Shown here: positions 3,279 to 22,073 of the stretch, piece by piece | How the letters are laid out: each line of letters opens with the position of its first letter | How positions within the stretch are numbered: the stretch's first letter is position 1 | NCBI GenBank assembly: GCA_023150835.1 | Contig: JAKLKB010000166.1 | Location: 1 to 22,500 of the forward strand | DNA length: 22,500 nucleotides | Reading direction: 5' to 3' | From: Myxococcota bacterium | Lineage (GTDB): Bacteria > Myxococcota_C > UBA6777 | Notes under the pieces: model-generated | Told to the model about the DNA's origin: nothing | Database searches by the model: none | Seen by the model: the letters and a program-made list of their open reading frames with translations, nothing else | Translations under genes and position numbers: made by a program

Positions 3279-3397
3279 GATATCCGAGAGAAGTGTACAC
3301 AAAAGGTAGGTGCGATCTGCTGTAAGCGCCCTGTTGTCGGGCAGCCACAGGGGGCTGCCCCTACGTTTTTCGATCACACGATGGGCGGATTTCGTAT
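3279..3397 (-). repeat. Family A MITE-like repeat, copy A5 (reverse)
   Basis: On the minus strand this copy starts ATACGAAATCCGCCC (ending at base 3397) and its far end retains GATATCCGAG (3279-3288). The middle holds the intact GGGCAGCC/GGCTGCCC hairpin. It begins about 40 bp after the stop of the Cys-repeat gene and abuts repeat B1 on the right. Together A5 and B1 fill nearly all of the 328-bp gap between 3237 and 3564; no gene is visible there. Confidence 0.8.
3339..3370 (+). terminator. Terminator-like hairpin inside repeat A5
   Basis: GGGCAGCC (3339-3346) pairs perfectly with GGCTGCCC (3353-3360) across a six-base loop, followed five bases later by TTTTT (3366-3370). It points the right way to end transcription of the gene that stops at 3236. 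The T-tract is short and slightly distant, so efficiency is uncertain. Confidence 0.5.
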
Positions 3398-3399
3398 GG

Positions 3400-3561
3400 C
3401 GCAGTGTCCCAAAAAAGCCGTGTTCGCGCTCCTTCGAGCGACAGCGTCGTTGGTTTGAAAAACGGTGATCTCTTCGCCGATACGGGGTCAAGGGGCCAAT
3501 GGTCTATGGCGGGGTTTGGTACCTCGTCCCACAAAAACCATCCAAATGCGTAAGTCCTATC
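3400..3561 (-). repeat. Family B MITE-like repeat, copy B1 (reverse)
   Basis: The reverse complement of this segment matches 9029-9193 along most of its length. Shared blocks include GCCCCTTGACCCCGT, TTTTTCAAACCAAC and GCGAACACGGCTTTTTTGG. One end is TGCGTAAGTCCTATC (3547-3561), which stops only three bases from the stop codon of the S9 peptidase gene (3565-3567). At the other end only the TGCG core of the inverted repeat remains, and it abuts repeat A5. Confidence 0.8.
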
Positions 3562-5655: not shown

Positions 5656-6999
5656 TCAGACGCGGAAGGTGTCGCGGAGGTATTGGGAAAAGGCTTCATA
5701 GGAAGCGTTGATCGAAGTGAAGGATTCTTCGCCGAGCAACGCGGCTTCGATGGCGGGTGGGAGAGGCGGATCGATGCCCAAGATCGCTTGCATCGCTTCG
5801 GGGAATTTGGCGGGGTGCGCGGTTTCGACGACCAATGTCGGGCAGGATGCGCCGTGTCGTTGGCGATATCGCTGCATTCCACACCATGCAACCGCTCCGT
5901 GTGGCTCAAGCAGGATGCCTTCAGACCACGCACTACGCATCGCTGCTGCGGTGTCTGGGTCGCTCACGCTGGTGGAAAAGAAATCTCTTTGGAGTGCAAG
6001 CATCTCGGGTGACTTGTGGATCTGCCCGATCTCGTCCATCTGTCCGTCATAAACGGACACCACACGCGCAAGATTCGAGGGATGTCCAACATTCATCGCA
6101 TTGGATAAACAATTGCGCGAAGGGACGATCTTTTCGTATCGTCCTGTCTGCAAAAAGCGGGGGAACTCGTCATTTTCGTTGACGGCAGCCACGAGATGAC
6201 GCAGCGGCACGCCGCATCTTCGGGCGATCCAAGCGCCCATGATGTTGCCAAAGTTTCCACACGGTACGACCACGCTGATCTCGCCCTGTCCTTGGGTGAT
6301 CTGCGCCCATGCGTAGGCGTAATACACGCTTTGCGGTAACAAACGCCCGATGTTGATCGAATTGGCCGAAGACAAGGGCAGAGAAGAAAAGGTTGGATCG
6401 GAAAAAGCGCGTTTGACGAAGGCTTGGCAATCATCAAACTTGCCGTCCACCGCCACACAGCGGATGTTTCCGTTGAGCGTGGTCATCAGCTTGCGTTGGC
6501 GGAGGCTCACCTCGGTTTCGGGAAACAAGACCACCACTTCGATGCCCGGGACACCATAAAAGGCGTGTGCGATCGCGCTGCCTGTATCTCCCGATGTTGC
6601 GGTCAAGATCAAGAGTTCGCGGCCTTCTTGTTCCAAAAACCGTGACATCATGCGCGCCATCGCTCGGGCGGCAAAGTCCTTAAACGAGGCGGTGGGGCCT
6701 TGATCGAGACGCAGCAGAAAACGCCCCGATCCCGCCTCTTCGATCGGTATGGGAAAAGGGTAAGCTTCTTCACACAACGAAGCCAACGCATCGGACGGCA
6801 GATCGGCTCCGACAAAGGGCTTCAAGATATCGTGCGCCAACGCCGCATAAGACAAGGACGGCCATGTGGCCCGTTCCTCCGCTGAAAACGTCGGATATTC
6901 GGTGGGTAGATACAATCCGCGATCGGGGGCTTGGCCTGCAAGCAGCGCCTCCCGAAACGAGACGAGGGGCGATTGAAGATTGGTGCTGCGATAGCGCAT
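5656..6999 (-). CDS. thrC: Threonine synthase
   Basis: This 447-residue PLP enzyme converts O-phosphohomoserine to threonine, the last step of threonine synthesis. The PLP lysine is K107 in GPTASFKDFAAR. TATSGDTGSA (about residues 133-142) is the phosphate- and substrate-binding signature, and VPCGNFGNIMGAW follows in the second half. N-terminal features (RGLYLP near residue 27) and length match the longer bacterial class rather than the short one. The ATG at 6999 is preceded by AAGGAA about nine bases upstream. It is transcribed away from the 7118 gene across a 118-bp gap that must hold both promoters. No other threonine genes are in the window, so the S9 peptidase neighbour is probably not functionally linked. 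Confidence 0.96.
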   Translation of the reverse strand: MRYRSTNLQSPLVSFREALLAGQAPDRGLYLPTEYPTFSAEERATWPSLSYAALAHDILKPFVGADLPSDALASLCEEAYPFPIPIEEAGSGRFLLRLDQGPTASFKDFAARAMARMMSRFLEQEGRELLILTATSGDTGSAIAHAFYGVPGIEVVVLFPETEVSLRQRKLMTTLNGNIRCVAVDGKFDDCQAFVKRAFSDPTFSSLPLSSANSINIGRLLPQSVYYAYAWAQITQGQGEISVVVPCGNFGNIMGAWIARRCGVPLRHLVAAVNENDEFPRFLQTGRYEKIVPSRNCLSNAMNVGHPSNLARVVSVYDGQMDEIGQIHKSPEMLALQRDFFSTSVSDPDTAAAMRSAWSEGILLEPHGAVAWCGMQRYRQRHGASCPTLVVETAHPAKFPEAMQAILGIDPPLPPAIEAALLGEESFTSINASYEAFSQYLRDTFRV

Positions 7000-7117: not shown

Positions 7118-8554
7118 ATGTTTGCAACTGCCCAAACAATCTCCCTTTTGGACCTTGCTTTCCAAGGCCCGCTCCACATCGGTTATAGCCTTGCTCTCTT
7201 GTTGTACGGAGCGTTTGCGGGTGTTTGGTTTGTGCGGCGCTTCCGCCATGACCGACAACAAATACAGGCGTCCGTTGAACAAGCACAAGCCACCCTCCAA
7301 CGCCTGCAACAAACTTCTGTCCCGATCGATGCGGCTGCATGGCCCGCATTTTTGCGTGAACACAAACTGTACGAACTGGCTGCAACGCTGGAATCGGGAC
7401 CCTCTTCTGCGACGCTGGAAACCCAGTCTGTGCGTTGGCTTGCACGCACGTCTGCTGACCCCCCCGTCAGTCCGCCGTCATCGTTGCTACCGCCTGCATT
7501 TTTTGTCGCGTTGGGCGTCTTGGGGACGCTGTGGGGGGCGCTGTCTTCGACTTCGCAGACGTGGATGTTTGCGCTGTGGCCCTCGGTCTGCGGGCTTTGT
7601 GTAGCGCTGATCGCCAGCCTGTTCGAGCGCGGGCTTCAATACACACACCAACGCCTTTTGCAACAACACCAAGAAGCCGCTGCCCAACGCCGCGCTTGGA
7701 TTGATCAAGTGATCTTGCCCCAACTACCGAATCTTCGCCGTTCGCGTGGTGTTCATGCACTCGAACATCTCCAACGCACGCTCTCGCAATTTATCGAAGC
7801 GCAGTCTGCCTCGTCGCCTTCGGAGGTGTGGGCTTCCTTGGCTCAACGGCAAGAGCAAACCCAACAAAAGCTTGAGCAGATCCTCCAATCCCTTCAATCT
7901 CTTCAGACCTTACCGCAGATCCTTCAAGGTTGGAGTACGCCTTTTGAGCGGGTCGAGCAAAGCCTTGAGGCGTGGTGCGCGACTCTCGATGGCATGGATG
8001 AAAAATTACAACGATTCTCTCGCGTCCTTGCGGAAGGTCTCGAACCGATCGCCCACAGCGAGCGGCTGCTAAGCGAGCGCATCGCCGCGCTCAGTCGGCA
8101 TTATGTCGCGCTGAGCGATATGCTCGAACGCATCGAACAACACGAACGCTTGCTCCCACAACGCACCGCTGATCTACTCAAGCTCTCCCTGCGGCCCGCA
8201 CACCAACTCCTCCAACGCGCAAGCCTCAGTCTTGTCGGGCTTCTTGAACAGTCGCTGAATCAACAAACGCGTGAACGAGAAGGCTGGCGCCGATTGATGG
8301 GCGAGATGAATGAGCGATTGAACAGCTTTGATCGTTTGACCCACGCTTACGAGAAAATGAACCACGAACTCAGCAGCGTGGCCGATACCCTCACCGAACT
8401 CTCGACACAGATCCGCTTTCGCCCGATCATCCCGACCCTCAACCAACAAGACACACAAAACATCAATGAAGCCCTCGAAACAGAGATCGAACAACTTCTC
8501 AACGATGGCTTCCGCGATCTGCAAGTGCCTCCCCCCTCGCAAGAGCCTTCTTAG
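7118..8554 (+). CDS. MotA/TolQ/ZorA-like membrane protein with long coiled-coil tail
   Basis: This 478-residue protein starts at ATG 7118, nine bases after GAGG. Three membrane segments are visible at about residues 21-40, 124-143 and 148-168. The second carries LGVLGTLWGAL (132-142) and the third WPSVCGLCVALIASLFERG (154-172). These match the paired pore helices of MotA/TolQ/ExbB proton channels, with a small polar residue (S156) where the family has a key Thr/Ser. From about 180 to 440 the protein is rich in Q, E, L and R and should be a very long coiled coil; the end is a short Pro/Ser tail. Long tails of this kind occur in ZorA of Zorya anti-phage systems. No MotB/ZorB/TolR-type partner lies next to it; the next gene encodes a TerB-like protein. 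Family assignment is good, function is inferred. Confidence 0.72.
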   Translation: MFATAQTISLLDLAFQGPLHIGYSLALLLYGAFAGVWFVRRFRHDRQQIQASVEQAQATLQRLQQTSVPIDAAAWPAFLREHKLYELAATLESGPSSATLETQSVRWLARTSADPPVSPPSSLLPPAFFVALGVLGTLWGALSSTSQTWMFALWPSVCGLCVALIASLFERGLQYTHQRLLQQHQEAAAQRRAWIDQVILPQLPNLRRSRGVHALEHLQRTLSQFIEAQSASSPSEVWASLAQRQEQTQQKLEQILQSLQSLQTLPQILQGWSTPFERVEQSLEAWCATLDGMDEKLQRFSRVLAEGLEPIAHSERLLSERIAALSRHYVALSDMLERIEQHERLLPQRTADLLKLSLRPAHQLLQRASLSLVGLLEQSLNQQTREREGWRRLMGEMNERLNSFDRLTHAYEKMNHELSSVADTLTELSTQIRFRPIIPTLNQQDTQNINEALETEIEQLLNDGFRDLQVPPPSQEPS

Positions 8555-8596
8555 CCCTCTTGCCACCGCGTCTTGCGATCGCCAAAGGAGTGAGCC

Positions 8597-8989
8597 ATGA
8601 CCGTTCTCGCCGAATGTACCGATGCTTTGCTCTACTTGCTTGATTACATGGTTGGCATCGACAAAAATCTCGACGCCCAAGAAACGCGCTACTTTATCCG
8701 CATCGCACGCCAACTCCACCAAGACGACTTTCTCTCCGTCCAAAAAAAGATCCAACGCATCGCCCAACTCGGCAACGATCCCCAACACGATCCCCAAACC
8801 CTCCTCCAAGAAGCCTGCGCCACCATCCGAAAAGAGCAACGCGCCGAAGAAGCCGTACAGATGTTGCGCAAGATGGCCGCCGTCGACGGCCACATCCACG
8901 ACCGCGAACAAGCACTGTTTGATCAGATCTGCCAACTTCTCGGCATCCCCACGTCCCCTCTGACCCTTGACGCCAACGCCGCCTCTTAA
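8597..8989 (+). CDS. TerB-like tellurite-resistance domain protein
   Basis: This 130-residue all-helical cytoplasmic protein begins at ATG 8597, six bases after a perfect AAGGAG (8585-8590). It has the internal two-fold pattern of TerB/DjlA-N domains. The first half has LLDYMVGIDKNLDAQETRYF (residues 14-33) and the second MLRKMAAVDGHIHDREQALF (89-108), each with the acidic D...E metal-binding-like positions (D22, E29, D97, D102, E104). TerB domains are associated with membrane-linked stress and defence complexes. The gap to the upstream channel-like gene is 42 bp with no terminator, so the two probably form an operon and the proteins may work together. No other ter gene is nearby, so tellurite resistance itself is not supported. 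Confidence 0.78.
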   Translation: MTVLAECTDALLYLLDYMVGIDKNLDAQETRYFIRIARQLHQDDFLSVQKKIQRIAQLGNDPQHDPQTLLQEACATIRKEQRAEEAVQMLRKMAAVDGHIHDREQALFDQICQLLGIPTSPLTLDANAAS

Positions 8990-9019: not shown

Positions 9020-9208
9020 TCTTGATTTGACTTACGCATTTGGTTCGGTTTTGTGGGGTTGGAACCCCACACCCCGCCATAAACTGTCGCCCCTTGACCC
9101 CGTGTTGGCCTCCGTGATCGATGGTTTTTCAAACCAACAGCACAGCCGATCGAGCGTTCGCGAACACGGCTTTTTTTGGCAACTGCGTAAGTCCTATCTT
9201 GATTTGAC
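9020..9208 (+). repeat. Family B MITE-like repeat, copy B2, with perfect terminal inverted repeats
   Basis: GACTTACGCA at 9029-9038 and TGCGTAAGTC at 9184-9193 are perfect 10-bp inverted repeats enclosing about 145 bp. Outside them TCTTGATTTGAC occurs directly repeated at 9020-9031 and 9197-9208, overlapping the left inverted repeat by three bases. This may be a target duplication or part of the element. The interior contains a TGGGGT/ACCCCA hairpin near 9056. It fills the 273-bp gap between the TerB-like and C2-domain genes. No coding capacity is evident. Confidence 0.82.
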
Positions 9209-9262
9209 GCACCTGCACGTTCACTTGCGCCCTGCCCCAAACCTCTCGTAAAGGAGTCTGTG

Positions 9263-10012
9263 ATGCTTCTCTCTCGCTCTCTCCGATGGTTGCTTTGTTC
9301 TTTTGTTTTCGCTGCCTCCTTGTCTTACGCCTGCCCTTCGCACGCACAAACAGAAACTTATCTCGTCACGGTTGTTGACGCTCAGATCGCACCCCTCAAA
9401 CAAAACAAACGACGATGGGATGGCGGTTTTGGCAAGATGACTCTCCCTGACGTCTTCGTCCAATTTGAAATCGGCGGAAAGCGCTATCGCACCACCGTCA
9501 TCAACAACACCCTTCTCCCTTCTTGGAAGATGACTTGGACCGTCCAAGCCCGACCCGACGAACGCATCTACATCAAAGTCCTCGACAAAGACCTCTCCGA
9601 CAACGACCTCATCGGCGAAGGTGACGGCCTGATCGGACAAATGCCTCCCAAACTTTTCTTTGGACAAGTTCTCTCCCTCCGCATCACCGTTGAAAAAGTT
9701 TCTCCCCCAAAACCTGTGAAGCCCGTTGTGCCCGTTGTACCTGTAAAACCCATCGTACCTGTAAAACCCGTTGTACCTGTAAAGCCCGTTGTACCTGTAA
9801 AGCCCGTTGTACCCGTTGTACCTGTGAAGCCCGTTGTGCCTGTAAAGCCCGTTGTACCTGTAAAACCCGTTGTGCCCGTTGTGCCCGTTGTACCTGTAAA
9901 ACCCGTTGTGCCCGTTGTGCCTGTAAAGCCCGTTGTGCCTGTAAAGCTCGAACTACCGACAACAAAGCCAGCGGATGTGCCGACGTCTCGGCCAGTTTCA
10001 AGCCCGAAGTGA
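9263..10012 (+). CDS. Secreted C2-domain protein with Pro-Val-Lys repeat tail
   Basis: This 249-residue protein starts at ATG 9263, six bases after AAGGAG (9251-9256); the GTG at 9260 is too close to that site. A Sec signal peptide spans about residues 1-28, with likely cleavage after SHA. Residues about 31-145 form a C2 domain. [20 protein letters not shown] (61-80), NNTLLPSW and [15 protein letters not shown] (106-120) match the family pattern, including aspartates D63, D108, D110, D113 and D115 where calcium-binding C2 domains have theirs. Residues about 150-235 are repeats of PVVPVKP, probably an extended rod such as a spacer across periplasm or wall. Calcium-dependent binding to membrane or envelope is inferred. 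No partner is adjacent, though it could be linked to the channel/TerB pair upstream. Confidence 0.82.
9713..9947 (+). repeat. In-frame tandem repeats coding PVVPVKP
   Basis: About 235 bp consist of irregularly alternating 9- and 18-bp modules that encode PVV and PVK(P) steps. Synonymous differences (GTA/GTG/GTT, AAA/AAG, CCT/CCC) are scattered between units. The tract therefore shows slippage and exchange while staying in frame. It ends where the unique sequence [15 protein letters not shown] begins. Confidence 0.92.
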
Positions 10013-10100: not shown

Positions 10101-10228
10101 TGTTGACAAAAAACGCCATGTTCGTGCCCGTACAAGCGAGAGAGTCGTTGGTGTGAGACGCGACGATCTGTTCGCCAACATGGGGTCAAGGGGCGACAGT
10201 CCCTTGCGGGGTGTGGGGCAGCGCCCCA
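10101..10228 (-). repeat. Family B repeat, copy B3 (reverse, divergent)
   Basis: Its reverse complement shares CAAGGGACTGTCGCCCCTTGACCCC with B4, and then an interrupted match through ACACCAACGAC, CGAACATGGCG and TTTTTTGTC. The terminal TGCGTAAGTC repeats are not recognisable. It runs directly into repeat C1, as if C replaced or was inserted at one B end. With C1 and D1 it occupies most of the 574-bp gap 10013-10586, which has no credible gene. Confidence 0.7.
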
Positions 10229-16067: not shown

Positions 16068-16958
16068 ATGGTGGAACAAAAGCAGATCTTTGGGTCGATT
16101 CTTCCTTTTGAGCGCATCGTGATCGCGCTGGATTCTTCGCCCCATAGCGTTCAGGCCCTTGAGGCGGCCTTGACTCTTGCGAGGTTATGGGATCTCTCGA
16201 TACACGGTGTTTTTGTGGAAGACAGCCAGCTTCATTACGCTGCCGAGATATCGTTTTCCCGCGAAGTCTCTCGCTTTTCCAGTACCCCTCAACCCCACAC
16301 CGCCGTATCCATCGCCCAACAGATCGCCGCGCAACGCAACCGCATCACGCAACATTTTCAACAGTGCGCACAACGCGCAAAGATCGCGGCTTCTTTCCAA
16401 TCGCTTCGCGGCTCTGTTCGCCACATGATCGCGCAAGCTCTTTCGCCACAAGACTTGCTTGGCCTCGGTTGCGCGGGGCATTCATCCTCTCCCTCCAAAC
16501 AAGTCGGTTCCAACACCTTGCACTGGCTCACCCAAACACGTCGCGCTTTGTTGATCGCACACGAAAGCGCCCAATACGGCGAAGAGATCGCCGTATTTTT
16601 TGACGGTCAACCCGCCAGTTTGCGTGCGCTTGATATCGGGGCGGCCTTGGCCTTGCGATCGGGCCGTCAGACGATCCGCGCCTTTCTTCCGCAACAGCCC
16701 GTCGCCAACTTCGAGCAGCGTCTTGCTTTGTTGCAAGAACATACTCGCAAACTACCGTTGTCTGTGCATTTGGTGCTGTTGCCTTCGCCTGTGCTGCTTC
16801 ATCTTGTCCGAGCCATCGAAGCGCACCGATGCGGGTTTTTGTTGTTGCCCGACTCGACAGAAACATCGTCGCACGATCTTTTCCGCTGGATCGGCCTTTT
16901 GTGTTGCCCGCTGTTGGTGATCCGAGAGTCGACTATGCGAGATCCGCAGGGCGCGTGA
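16068..16958 (+). CDS. Universal stress protein (UspA superfamily)
   Basis: From ATG 16068 this is a 296-residue cytoplasmic protein; an in-frame TTG at 16032 would add 12 residues. Neither has a good ribosome site. The N-terminal half is typical of UspA domains: FERIVIALDSSPHSVQALEA (about residues 14-33) followed by RLWDLSIHGVFVEDSQL. The second half (from about residue 180, EEIAVFFDGQPASLRALDIG) looks like a second, more divergent Usp unit, making a tandem Usp. The classical nucleotide-binding GxxGxG pattern is not obvious; GLGCAGHSSSPSKQVGS (about 146-162) is the nearest equivalent. The final residues, MRDPQGA, and the TGA lie inside repeat A2, so the original C-terminus was probably different. 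Confidence 0.85.
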   Translation: MVEQKQIFGSILPFERIVIALDSSPHSVQALEAALTLARLWDLSIHGVFVEDSQLHYAAEISFSREVSRFSSTPQPHTAVSIAQQIAAQRNRITQHFQQCAQRAKIAASFQSLRGSVRHMIAQALSPQDLLGLGCAGHSSSPSKQVGSNTLHWLTQTRRALLIAHESAQYGEEIAVFFDGQPASLRALDIGAALALRSGRQTIRAFLPQQPVANFEQRLALLQEHTRKLPLSVHLVLLPSPVLLHLVRAIEAHRCGFLLLPDSTETSSHDLFRWIGLLCCPLLVIRESTMRDPQGA

Positions 16959-17049
16959 TCGCAAAACGTTAGGGGCAGCCATAGGGGGCTGCCCAAGAAT
17001 CGGGCGTCTACGTGTTCTCCTTTGTGTACGCATTACTCGGATATCGTAT
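16935..17049 (+). repeat. Family A MITE-like repeat, copy A2, overlapping the Usp gene end
   Basis: This 115-bp copy runs from ATGCGAGATCCG to CGGATATCGTAT. Its first 24 bases are coding sequence of the Usp gene and include the stop. The hairpin GGGCAGCC (16973-16980) with GGCTGCCC (16987-16994) is intact. One base separates it from copy A3. Confidence 0.88.
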
Positions 17050-17050
17050 T

Positions 17051-17165
17051 ATACGAGATCCGCCCGTAGTGTGATCGTAAAAATGTAGGGGCAGCCCCCT
17101 GTGGCTGCCCAACAATCGGGCGTCTGGGCGCTCTCCTTCGATCACAGATCACTCGGATATCGTAT
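17051..17165 (+). repeat. Family A MITE-like repeat, copy A3, in tandem with A2
   Basis: This 115-bp copy starts ATACGAGATCCGCCC and ends ACTCGGATATCGTAT. The last base coincides with the last base of the histidine kinase stop codon on the other strand. It is the most regular copy of the family and matches A1 with few differences. Confidence 0.92.
17079..17110 (-). terminator. Terminator-like hairpin of repeat A3, serving the histidine kinase
   Basis: On the minus strand GGGCAGCC (17110-17103) pairs with GGCTGCCC (17096-17089), followed after five bases by TTTTT (17083-17079). It lies about 55 bp beyond the histidine kinase stop in the right orientation. Copy A2 offers a second such hairpin further along. 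Confidence 0.5.
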
Positions 17166-18703
17166 TACTCCGAGAGATTCGAGCATTTTGAGCTTGTCTG
17201 CAAAGGAAGAGTGATCCGAAAACAAGCTCCTGTGGTGTTGCGTGTGTTGTCCGTCACTTCGAGGGTTCCGCCTGCTTCGAGCAGCGTTCGTTGACAGATC
17301 GCAAGCCCGAGGCCCACGCCTTTTCCGGGTTCTTTGGTCGTAAAAAAGGGTTCAAATATCTTTTCGCGCAGCGTTGCGGGGACGCCCGGACCGGCATCTT
17401 CGACGCAAAGCACGAGTAGGGCAGAGCCTTCTGTGGGTTGAAGCGCAGCGGACAGCCAGATCGGCCCCTTGCCCTGTGTCGCATCGGCAGCGTTGAGCAG
17501 AAGGTTGATCAAGACTTGCATCAGGGCAGAGGATTCGATGGGGACGATGGGAAGGTCAGGAGCGACTTCTTGTTGCAAGGTGGCTTGTCGAAAACGCGGT
17601 TGCAAAGACAACAACTCGATGGCTTCTTCGATGGCTTGGTTGGGCCAACAAGAAGCAGTTTGTGTTTGTTTGGGGCGTGCGTAGTCCAGCAGATCCCGAA
17701 TGATCCGATCGATGCGTTTGGCTTCTTTTTCGATGCGCTTAACAAGGTCTCGTTCGGCTTCGCTCCACGTCTCAGAAGTCGCAAGCAGATCGCTGTAGCC
17801 CATGATGGCGCTTAGTGGATTGCCGATCTCGTGCGCAACACCAGCGGCCATCTGCCCGACAGAAGACAGCTTTTCGCGTTGGATCAACTCGTTTTGGGCG
17901 CGTTGAAGGATCTTGTTGGCTTCTTGGAGGGCTTGGAGCTGCGTTTCTCGGGTGGTTTGGTGGACTTGTAAGATCGACTCCATCCCCACAAAAGAACGCG
18001 CAAGATCGCCGATCTCGTCTTGGCGCGTCACTTCGATCTCCAAGCCATCGCTGCGGCCTTTGGCTGCAAGGTGATCCATCGCGTGTCCAAGACGCTCAAG
18101 GGGTCGGACAAGACGCCTCGTAAGAAAAAAAAGTAAGATGAAGAGGATGATCGCGCAAAAGAGAAACAGGTAGATCAGAAGCAGCGTTTGATAAGCAAAA
18201 AATGCCTGTCGATCCAAGGCGATACGCCAGCGGATCCATACCGCGCCGATCTTTTTATTGGCTTCGTACAAAGGAACGCTGCGTTCCCACACTTCGCCGC
18301 GTTGTTGGGGGTCGCGCTGGATCTCAAAACGGGGGGTGGTCGCTTGGTGTGTGGTTTGGATGTAGAGGGTCTTTTCTTGTGCGCGGATCCGCCCCATCTG
18401 CCACACTAGATGTCCCCGTACATCTAGGCAAAAGGCCGCCTCAGGCTGGTGTGGGCGGATCATCCGAAGCCAACGGTGCAGCCACTGCAAACGTTGCGAG
18501 GCCGAAGCTGCGGAGATCGGGTGCGTTTGCCAGCCCACCTCCAAAAATTCCGCCATCTCTTGAAGATGTCGCCGCCGAAGCTGCATATCGCGCACCTGTG
18601 CGACGTACAGCGCAAGAAAGCTCAACCCCATCGATGCCAACAACATCACCAAACCAAGATTAAACGCCAATTGGCTGCGCAGACCATAACGAAAACTTGG
18701 CAT
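17165..18703 (-). CDS. Membrane-bound sensor histidine kinase
   Basis: This 512-residue kinase starts at ATG 18703 with a GAGAGAGG-type ribosome site. It has membrane helices at about residues 12-37 and 171-197 enclosing a periplasmic sensor of about 130 residues that I cannot assign. A HAMP linker (about 197-249), a short coiled coil and the HisKA helix follow, with the phospho-acceptor H291 in [20 protein letters not shown]. The ATPase domain shows the N box NLLLNAADA, the G1 box EDAGPGV, the F box FEPFF and the G2 box [10 protein letters not shown], so it should be active. The HEIxNPL motif is typical of NtrB-like kinases. No response regulator lies in the window, so it is an orphan. Its stop codon touches repeat A3. 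Confidence 0.94.
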
Positions 18704-18739: not shown

Positions 18740-18896
18740 GACTTGTTGGGTTTGTTTTGGTTTTGTGGGGCTTTGCCCCACGCCCCACAAGGGACTGTCG
18801 CCCCTTGACCCCTGTGTCGGCGGGTCGAACAGATGTTTTCAAACAAACATCTCTGCCGCTTGGTGTCACGCGAACACGGGAGTTTTTGTCCACCAT
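18740..18896 (+). repeat. Family B repeat, copy B4
   Basis: It shares with B2 the GGTTTTGTGGGG start, ACTGTCGCCCCTTGACCCC, and a block near the end containing GCGAACACGG. The terminal inverted repeat is degenerate; only GACTT is left at 18740. The TGGGGC/GCCCCA hairpin near 18766-18780 is intact. It occupies the whole gap between the histidine kinase start and the end of the prepilin peptidase gene. Confidence 0.75.
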
Positions 18897-18911: not shown

Positions 18912-20072
18912 TCAATAAAAAAGAAAGATCCGTCGTATCGTTTCCATCCACCACGCAACGATGCGCTCTCCCCAAAAGATCACTTCAAACGCACCAAGCG
19001 CCAAAAAAGGCCCAAAGGGGATCGCGACCCGACCCCATCCGATATCTTTTTGCGCCTCTTCCACTTGGGGCGTCTCGGAGGTCTCGGTAGATGGGGCAGC
19101 TTGGGATGTTTCGGAGGTCTCGGTAGATAGGGCAGCTTGGGATGCTTCGGATGTCTCGGTGGATGGGGCGGTTTGGGATGCTTCGGATGTCTCGGTAGAT
19201 AGGGCAGTTTGGGATGTTTGGGAGGTCTCGGTGGATAGGGCAGTTTGGGATGTTTCGGAGGTCTCGGTGGATAGGGCAGCTTGGGATGTTTCGGAGGTCT
19301 CGGTGGGTGGGGGGGAGAGGGGAGAAGGGGCTTGTTCATCCCAATCTTCAGGGACTTGTTCGCGCCATCCGAGGAGATAAAGGAAGATCGCCACGACGAC
19401 ACCTTGGACAGATGCAAGGAAGACGACTGTGAGCGTGTTTTTCCATCCGACGAAAGCCCCGATCAGTGCGAGAAGTTTCACATCGCCAAGCCCGAGACCT
19501 GTTCGTCGCAAGACCCATTCATAAAAGAGATGGATCACCAGCAAAGAACCGCCGCCCAAAGCTGCGCCCAACGCGGCGTCTTGCCACGTCGGCAACAAGG
19601 GAGGCCCAAACAAGGCGGCGGCTCCGATGGCAAGGGGGATCGTCGGAAGAGACAGGACATCGGGGATGATCCAATAAGCCAAATCGATGAACGTGATGAC
19701 GATCAACACGCAGACAAAAGCAAAGATCACGAGACTTTCCCAACGTGGCCCAAAACGCCGAACCACCGCCACCGCCATCACCGCCGTCATCAGCTCAACA
19801 AGCGGATATTGCAGAGAGATCGAGTACTTTTCGCAACGGCAACGGCCTCGCAACCAAAGGTAGCTTAAGATCGGGATGTTGTCGTACCAAGCGATCTGTT
19901 GGTTGCAACCGAAACAGATCGAGCGTGCGGGCGAAAACACAGACATCCCTTCAAGCGGGATGCGGATGATGCAGACATTCAGAAAACTTCCGACAAAGGC
20001 TCCATACACAAAAGCCATGCCGTAGAGATACAGCGGTGGAAGTTGTTCAAAGAGGTTGACGGCAAAGAGCAA
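18912..20072 (-). CDS. pilD: Type IV prepilin peptidase (A24 family) with repeat insert
   Basis: This 386-residue integral membrane protein would cleave the leader of type IV pilin-like precursors and N-methylate the new end. I chose TTG 20072, seven bases after AAGGAG (20085-20080); a longer TTG frame from 20108 includes that site. The N-terminal GSFLNVCIIRIP is typical. The zinc-type cysteines are CFGC (C53, C56) and then C78 and C80, a CxC where most relatives have CxxC. The aspartyl-peptidase sites are FID (D130, with IPD at 138) and GLGLGDVKLL (D197). Between the seventh and eighth helices about 85 residues of 12-residue repeats (STETSETSQAAL) are inserted, before the conserved IPFGPFLALGA. 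No pilin or secretion genes are in the window. It sits 67 bp after the lipoprotein gene. Confidence 0.92.
   Translation of the reverse strand: MLFAVNLFEQLPPLYLYGMAFVYGAFVGSFLNVCIIRIPLEGMSVFSPARSICFGCNQQIAWYDNIPILSYLWLRGRCRCEKYSISLQYPLVELMTAVMAVAVVRRFGPRWESLVIFAFVCVLIVITFIDLAYWIIPDVLSLPTIPLAIGAAALFGPPLLPTWQDAALGAALGGGSLLVIHLFYEWVLRRTGLGLGDVKLLALIGAFVGWKNTLTVVFLASVQGVVVAIFLYLLGWREQVPEDWDEQAPSPLSPPPTETSETSQAALSTETSETSQTALSTETSQTSQTALSTETSEASQTAPSTETSEASQAALSTETSETSQAAPSTETSETPQVEEAQKDIGWGRVAIPFGPFLALGAFEVIFWGERIVAWWMETIRRIFLFY
19066..19312 (-). repeat. 36-bp in-frame tandem repeats within the prepilin peptidase gene
   Basis: About seven units of 36 bp encode 12-residue steps of the type STETSETSQAAL. 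Variation is limited to E/Q, T/A and L/P swaps. The DNA is strongly G-rich and C-poor on the plus strand. The unit length keeps the frame open. Confidence 0.93.
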
Positions 20073-20139
20073 GTCGGGACTCCTTTTCGAGACGGCGCGT
20101 GTCCACAAGAGAAGGGTATTTCACAAAAGAAAAGCGGAT

Positions 20140-21903: not shown

Positions 21904-22000
21904 AGGGGTGGTGAGTTCTCCATGCGCAGGTATCTGGAGAATTGACCTTCCATCGGGGCGACGTTTTGTTGCGTTGAACGAGGCCTTCGTTGTGTTGGTC

Positions 22001-22073
22001 ATACGATATCCGAGTGGTGTGTGATCGTAAGATAGTGCGTAGACACCCGATTCTTGGGCAGCCACAGGGGGCG
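22001..22073 (-). repeat. Family A repeat, truncated copy A4 (reverse)
   Basis: It starts ATACGATATCCGAG at 22001 and follows the reverse family A sequence to GGGCAGCCACAGGGGGC. The match then breaks off, so half the hairpin and the other terminal repeat are missing. It is the first recognisable item in the 597-bp gene-free stretch 21904-22500, which otherwise holds D2 and C2 and no credible gene. Confidence 0.78.

Follow-up and report, generated by a model that had tools for sequence, protein, structure and literature searches.

The closest described counterparts of the locus reported here are ZorA and ZorB of the Zorya defence system (PDB 8VVN, 8QYH; PMC11890865), in which the A subunit combines a three-helix membrane core with a long cytoplasmic coiled-coil tail. 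In the ZorA structures, a collar built from the loops and periplasmic extensions of TM2 and TM3 packs against ZorB (PMC11890865). What the long tail does, and whether ion flow must rotate it, is treated as a hypothesis in that work (PMC11890865). The broader MotA/TolQ/ExbB family (PF01618) shares the hairpin motif GxLGT...A[LF]W.S..GL, and ExbB-family proteins without a B partner have been annotated in some Gram-positives (PMC9389320). Here, we describe an A subunit, A1, that resembles ZorA in its core and tail and differs from it in having neither a B partner nor the hairpin extension.

The window, i.e., the whole stretch of DNA that was analysed (22,500 nucleotides), comprises contig G000:C112 in its entirety; the draft genome measures 7.56 Mb. 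Five genomes of the phylum were examined: the window's genome (G000); a sister species of the same genus, a Myxococcota MAG (labelled L004/G001); G003 and G004, which represent two other genera of the same family; and G002. The window's genus (g1) thus comprises two species, whose draft assemblies are 93% and 86% complete. The comparison set for A1 consisted of these two species together with a further three A1 proteins, drawn from two genomes outside the genus. The features are as follows:

5656-6999, minus strand: threonine synthase, the synteny marker divergent from A1, with homologues beside A1 in G004 and on G003 contig C146 (named from sequence, without a profile search)
7118-8554, plus strand: A1, a wheel subunit of the ZorA/MotA family that lacks a B partner (478 aa, ATG start), homologous over its full length to A1 of G003 and G004, with a 92% identical orthologue in G001/L004
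7169-7234, plus strand: TM1-like segment of A1 (aa 18-39), from hydropathy and alignment with TM1 of relatives
7484-7633, plus strand: truncated TM2-TM3 hairpin of A1 (aa 123-172), with 19 residues absent after G140 compared with relatives and with T137 and S156 kept, from alignment, hydropathy and spacing counts
7988-8425, plus strand: conserved coiled-coil tail block of A1 (aa 291-436), with 146/146 residues the same in both species of the genus and 35-41% identity to A1 elsewhere in the family
8555-8596, plus strand: 42-bp gap between A1 and TerB, containing AAAGGAG; in G004, this place is taken by B, a gene on the opposite strand and a kelch gene (~3.9 kb)
8597-8989, plus strand: TerB-domain protein (130 aa, ATG start; PF05099, E 4.8e-11, 43.4 bits against a cut-off of 24.4; dN/dS 0.056)
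9023-9210, no strand: repeat-rich stretch between TerB and C2, extent approximate, in a gap of 270 bp that measures 92 bp in the sister species
9260-10012, plus strand: C2-domain protein, exported-looking, with PV/KPV repeats (PF00168, E 2.4e-10); a homologous C2 gene follows TerB in G004

A ZorA-type subunit without its B gene

The two open reading frames of the initial annotation, 42 bp apart, and the hairpin motifs that it quoted are all present, and its view of the first product as a ZorA-like protein of MotA/TolQ type with a long tail was confirmed through the relatives of A1. Taken alone, the window A1 gave no PF01618 (MotA_ExbB) match at the curated Pfam cut-off, and its best motor match was PADLOC ZorA2 (E 0.0098). 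The A1 proteins of G003 and G004 lie above the PF01618 cut-off (E 3.6e-06 to 8.2e-08) and match the ZorA models of PADLOC (E down to 1.8e-19), and it is because of these matches that we assign MotA/ZorA kinship to the window A1, which aligns with these PF01618 members at E 2.6e-40 to 6.5e-26, as expected from common descent with A subunits. An A1 profile also matched solved structures (ZorA 8vvn, E 1e-07; ZorA 8qyh, 2e-04; TolQ, 0.008). The curated NCBIfam cut-offs for ZorA and ZorB were not reached. Identity between the window A1 and A1 of G003 and G004 was 28-31% overall in a five-sequence alignment and 31-33% in a four-sequence one, with 41% identity to G004 A1 over the tail.

Hydropathy marks three hydrophobic segments in A1 (18-39, 120-146 and 147-171), and from residue ~173 onward the protein is predicted, at low confidence, to be helical. 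The ~300 residues after the hairpin resemble the long cytoplasmic tail of ZorA. AlphaFold2 models of the window A1 and of G004 A1, built from four-sequence alignments, were too poor for use (mean pLDDT 50.8 and 50.1). A search of 290 genomes, the majority from other phyla, returned matches at E 1e-12 in the same five only; there were none in plasmids or viral contigs, and a contig-level genome search returned the sister species alone. The alignments are best explained if the ancestor of A1 was the wheel (A) subunit in a ZorAB-like 5:2 ion motor of the same bacterial family.

In that family, A1 has a partner. In G004 and on contig C354 of G003, a B gene of 332-343 aa directly follows A1. Its product combines an N-terminal TM helix, in which the usual Asp is present, with a coiled coil and, at the C terminus, an OmpA domain (PF00691), and it matches ZorB1 (E 2e-34 and 5e-32). 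The gene order in G004 reads threonine synthase (divergent), A1, B1, opposite-strand gene, kelch gene, TerB and C2; a second A1 of G003 also adjoins threonine synthase (C146), on a contig that stops at the A1 stop codon. In neither species of the window's genus is there a B gene at the A1 locus, in agreement with the initial annotation, and the locus thereby departs from the 5:2 rotary motors, whose B is encoded with A. A B1 homology search of G000 and G001 found no close homologue, returning paralogues and general OmpA proteins only; the best match in G000 was a 32% identical paralogue that has its own A2. The annotation had also left room for a conserved B gene that is merely displaced: B is indeed conserved directly after A in the relatives, but in the window's genus these searches indicate that it is missing rather than displaced, although it could sit in unassembled parts of the two genomes. 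Given that an A is paired with a B in A1B1, A2B2 and ZorAB alike, the lone A1 most likely reflects a loss of B. Evidence from G002 for a loss of the whole locus was considered and rejected, as threonine synthase is absent there as well as the A1 locus, which is probably missing from that assembly. The B-less ExbB proteins annotated elsewhere (PMC9389320) similarly are A subunits without an annotated B; they are database entries for which a loss is not established, whereas the loss inferred for the window A1 is placed by synteny and comes with matching changes in the protein.

Membership of Zorya itself was rejected: Zorya effector genes were not found, and the window locus does not hold the combination of ZorB and an effector. 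No ZorC, ZorD or ZorE was found beside A1B1 in the relatives examined. Profile scoring of the window neighbours identified TerB, C2, FHA and kinase genes, and the neighbours of G003 A1B1, scored against PADLOC, included RapA-like and restriction-modification proteins. There (C354; L035:7135-8751), a type II restriction enzyme and a methyltransferase lie ~4 kb upstream of A1B1, with the RapA-like gene in between.

The paralogous pair A2B2 occurs in the family, the window's genome included. This ZorAB/MotAB-like pair directly follows a gene for a giant TamB-domain protein (L041:1159-12429 on G004 C103; L039:373-9423 on G000 C191; PF04357, E 4.5e-43 in G004), and downstream of it lies a conserved protein of ~410-430 aa without a Pfam match, joined in G004 by a three-repeat PEGA protein. 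In G002, A2 and B2 are split onto contigs C35 and C22 (L040:7127-8371 and L064:6325-7368), with B2 still after the giant TamB-like gene. A motor pair beside a TamB-type envelope bridge may merit separate study.

The shortened hairpin and the constrained tail

The window A1 differs from its relatives in the TM2-TM3 hairpin. Counted from the Thr of the TM2 GT motif to the first Ala of the TM3 motif, the hairpin spacing was 15 residues in both species of the window's genus. Every A1 and A2 protein of the family with a full hairpin has 34, and the remaining MotA/ExbB-type hairpins encoded in G000 have 29-31. With 19 residues deleted, the full TM2-loop-TM3 hairpin around the B axle is not present. 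By this geometry, the deletion would amount to about ten residues per helix beyond the membrane, and it appears to map to the collar that packs against ZorB. Both pore hydroxyls are retained: in the alignments, T137 and S156 fall on the Thr and Ser/Thr positions of ZorA and TolQ. A replacement of the TM3 ion-site Thr by Pro was considered and rejected, since the TolQ/ZorA alignment puts the pore residue at S156 and the T-to-P change at the adjacent position 155. Both species, which differ by ~9% in nucleotide sequence over A1, share this deletion and the gene order, with open frames throughout the contigs. Because the axle-contacting hairpin is truncated, a motor role for the window A1, and with it the membrane-motor half of the earlier proposal, is unlikely.

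Among A1 proteins whose hairpin is full-length, no other part is as well conserved across the family as the hairpin (58-65% identity), and identity drops to 34-42% between those proteins and the window's genus; in the tail, it falls little, from 42-47% to 35-41%. In this genus, constraint has thus been relaxed in the hairpin but not in the tail. Between the two species, which are separated by ~0.3 synonymous changes per site, dN/dS was 0.126 for A1 overall, about 0.26 for the hairpin (aa 126-175), where some constraint is still present, and 0.008 for the tail (aa 290-470), the most constrained part of A1. In aa 1-289, 45 codon changes were synonymous and 35 non-synonymous, against 29 synonymous and a single non-synonymous change in aa 290-470. 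The Fisher p of 2e-5 for this contrast is indicative only, given that the border between front and tail was picked after viewing the alignment. Recent gene conversion as the source of the identical tail was rejected, as synonymous divergence in the tail (0.29) is normal and like that in the rest of A1.

TerB, C2 and the downstream region

The complete TerB domain that the initial annotation had seen next door, and the C2-domain protein after a repeat, were both recovered by profile search. The AAAGGAG in the gap between A1 and TerB resembles a ribosome site and is also found in G001, which keeps the same gene order and a 98% identical TerB; A1 and TerB are probably co-transcribed. Like described TerB proteins, this one carries a complete domain above the PF05099 cut-off; unlike them, it has no tellurite-resistance (ter) operon in view around it, and its counterparts in G003 and G002 lie away from A1. 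The literature excerpts that we consulted on TerB with motor proteins or Zorya held nothing linking them.

All five phylum genomes examined (5/5) have a TerB match, which adjoins A1 in the window's genus only. In G004, TerB lies ~3.9 kb downstream of A1 on the same strand and is followed by C2; in G003, TerB and A1B1 occupy separate contigs; and TerB of G002 is flanked by other genes, a case that is no test of a dependence between A1 and TerB given the probable gap in that assembly. The linkage of A1, TerB and C2 is thus probably older than the loss of B, but not general. The survey of co-occurrence suggested earlier gave a divided answer, with the genes adjacent in both species of the genus, linked in G004 and apart in G003 and G002.

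The repeat before C2 belongs to a ~180-bp stretch that the sister species lacks, which is suggestive of a mobile repeat of small size. Copies related to it, with partners in inverted orientation (pairs I1-I9), are dispersed over the window (3322-3561, 9024-9187, 10109-10228, 16932-17168, 18766-18812 and 21998-22072). Tandem repeats also occur within genes, namely the PV/KPV repeat of C2 at 9685-9972 and a 36-bp repeat at 19029-19351 inside ORF 18912-20108. The C2-domain family is expanded in G000, with six matches to the G004 C2 protein (e.g., L067:5768-7522).

A probable membrane-anchored scaffold and its alternatives

The loss of B, the truncation of the hairpin and the constraint on the tail are each supported by sequence evidence. 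We consider it probable (roughly 0.62) that A1 is a former motor subunit of ZorA type kept as a membrane-anchored coiled-coil scaffold. The loss of B would have come together with the loss of the B-packing collar, and A1 would no longer be an ion-driven rotor. It would persist as an oligomeric membrane anchor whose coiled-coil rod extends into the cytoplasm, as in ZorA, and may bind or position a cytoplasmic partner there. TerB, encoded by the next gene, is a possible partner of the A1 tail and, as a guess, the first candidate. The retained T137 and S156 and the hairpin dN/dS of ~0.26 speak against a complete departure from the motor, and a channel or motor function of A1 with a foreign B is still conceivable.

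The initial annotation had proposed that A1 and TerB form a system of their own. That the two are parts of one working system, a membrane sensor or scaffold with TerB and perhaps the C2 protein, is a rather unlikely alternative. It would account for the 42-bp gap on the same strand, conserved in both species, for the strong constraint on both the A1 tail and TerB, and for the presence of TerB and C2 less than 4 kb from A1 on one strand in G004. The separation of the genes in G003 and G002, however, and their direct adjacency only where B is gone, argue against it.

Alternatively, A1 could still be a motor that receives its B in trans from another operon (A2B2 or ExbD/TolR-type pairs), with the shorter hairpin fitting a shorter B. 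The pore hydroxyls are kept, a complete A2B2 pair is present in G000, and 11 other PF01618 matches in that genome make it likely that B-type subunits of other pairs are available; moreover, the possibility that variants of MotA assemble around specific MotB proteins has been raised in a review (PMC9389320). A spacing of 15 is, however, far outside the range of 29-34 of all other MotA/ExbB hairpins examined, and conservation fell in the hairpin and not in the tail, which leaves this alternative unlikely.

A decaying gene left behind after the loss of B is very improbable: while the lost partner, the truncated and relaxed hairpin and a long branch to the genus (1.2 against 0.5-1.0) would fit decay, the intact frame in two species and the low dN/dS values, above all that of the tail, largely refute it through purifying selection. 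Assembly or binning errors as the source of both the missing hairpin segment and the missing B, conceivable with two draft genomes, are more improbable still in view of the identical deletion, gene order and open frames in two diverged species.

We thus return to the reading of A1 as a retained scaffold. Should its rod work with TerB, this ZorA-type protein and TerB would form a new, rotation-independent signalling or scaffolding unit, a suggestion that we make tentatively. Because the tail has remained almost unchanged despite the loss of B and the cut in the hairpin, the data suggest that the tail does useful work without the motor. A lineage without an axle, with a trimmed hairpin and with the tail as its most constrained part would show the function of the tail uncoupled in nature from that of the motor, and A1 would provide a compact protein for finding the partners of the tail.
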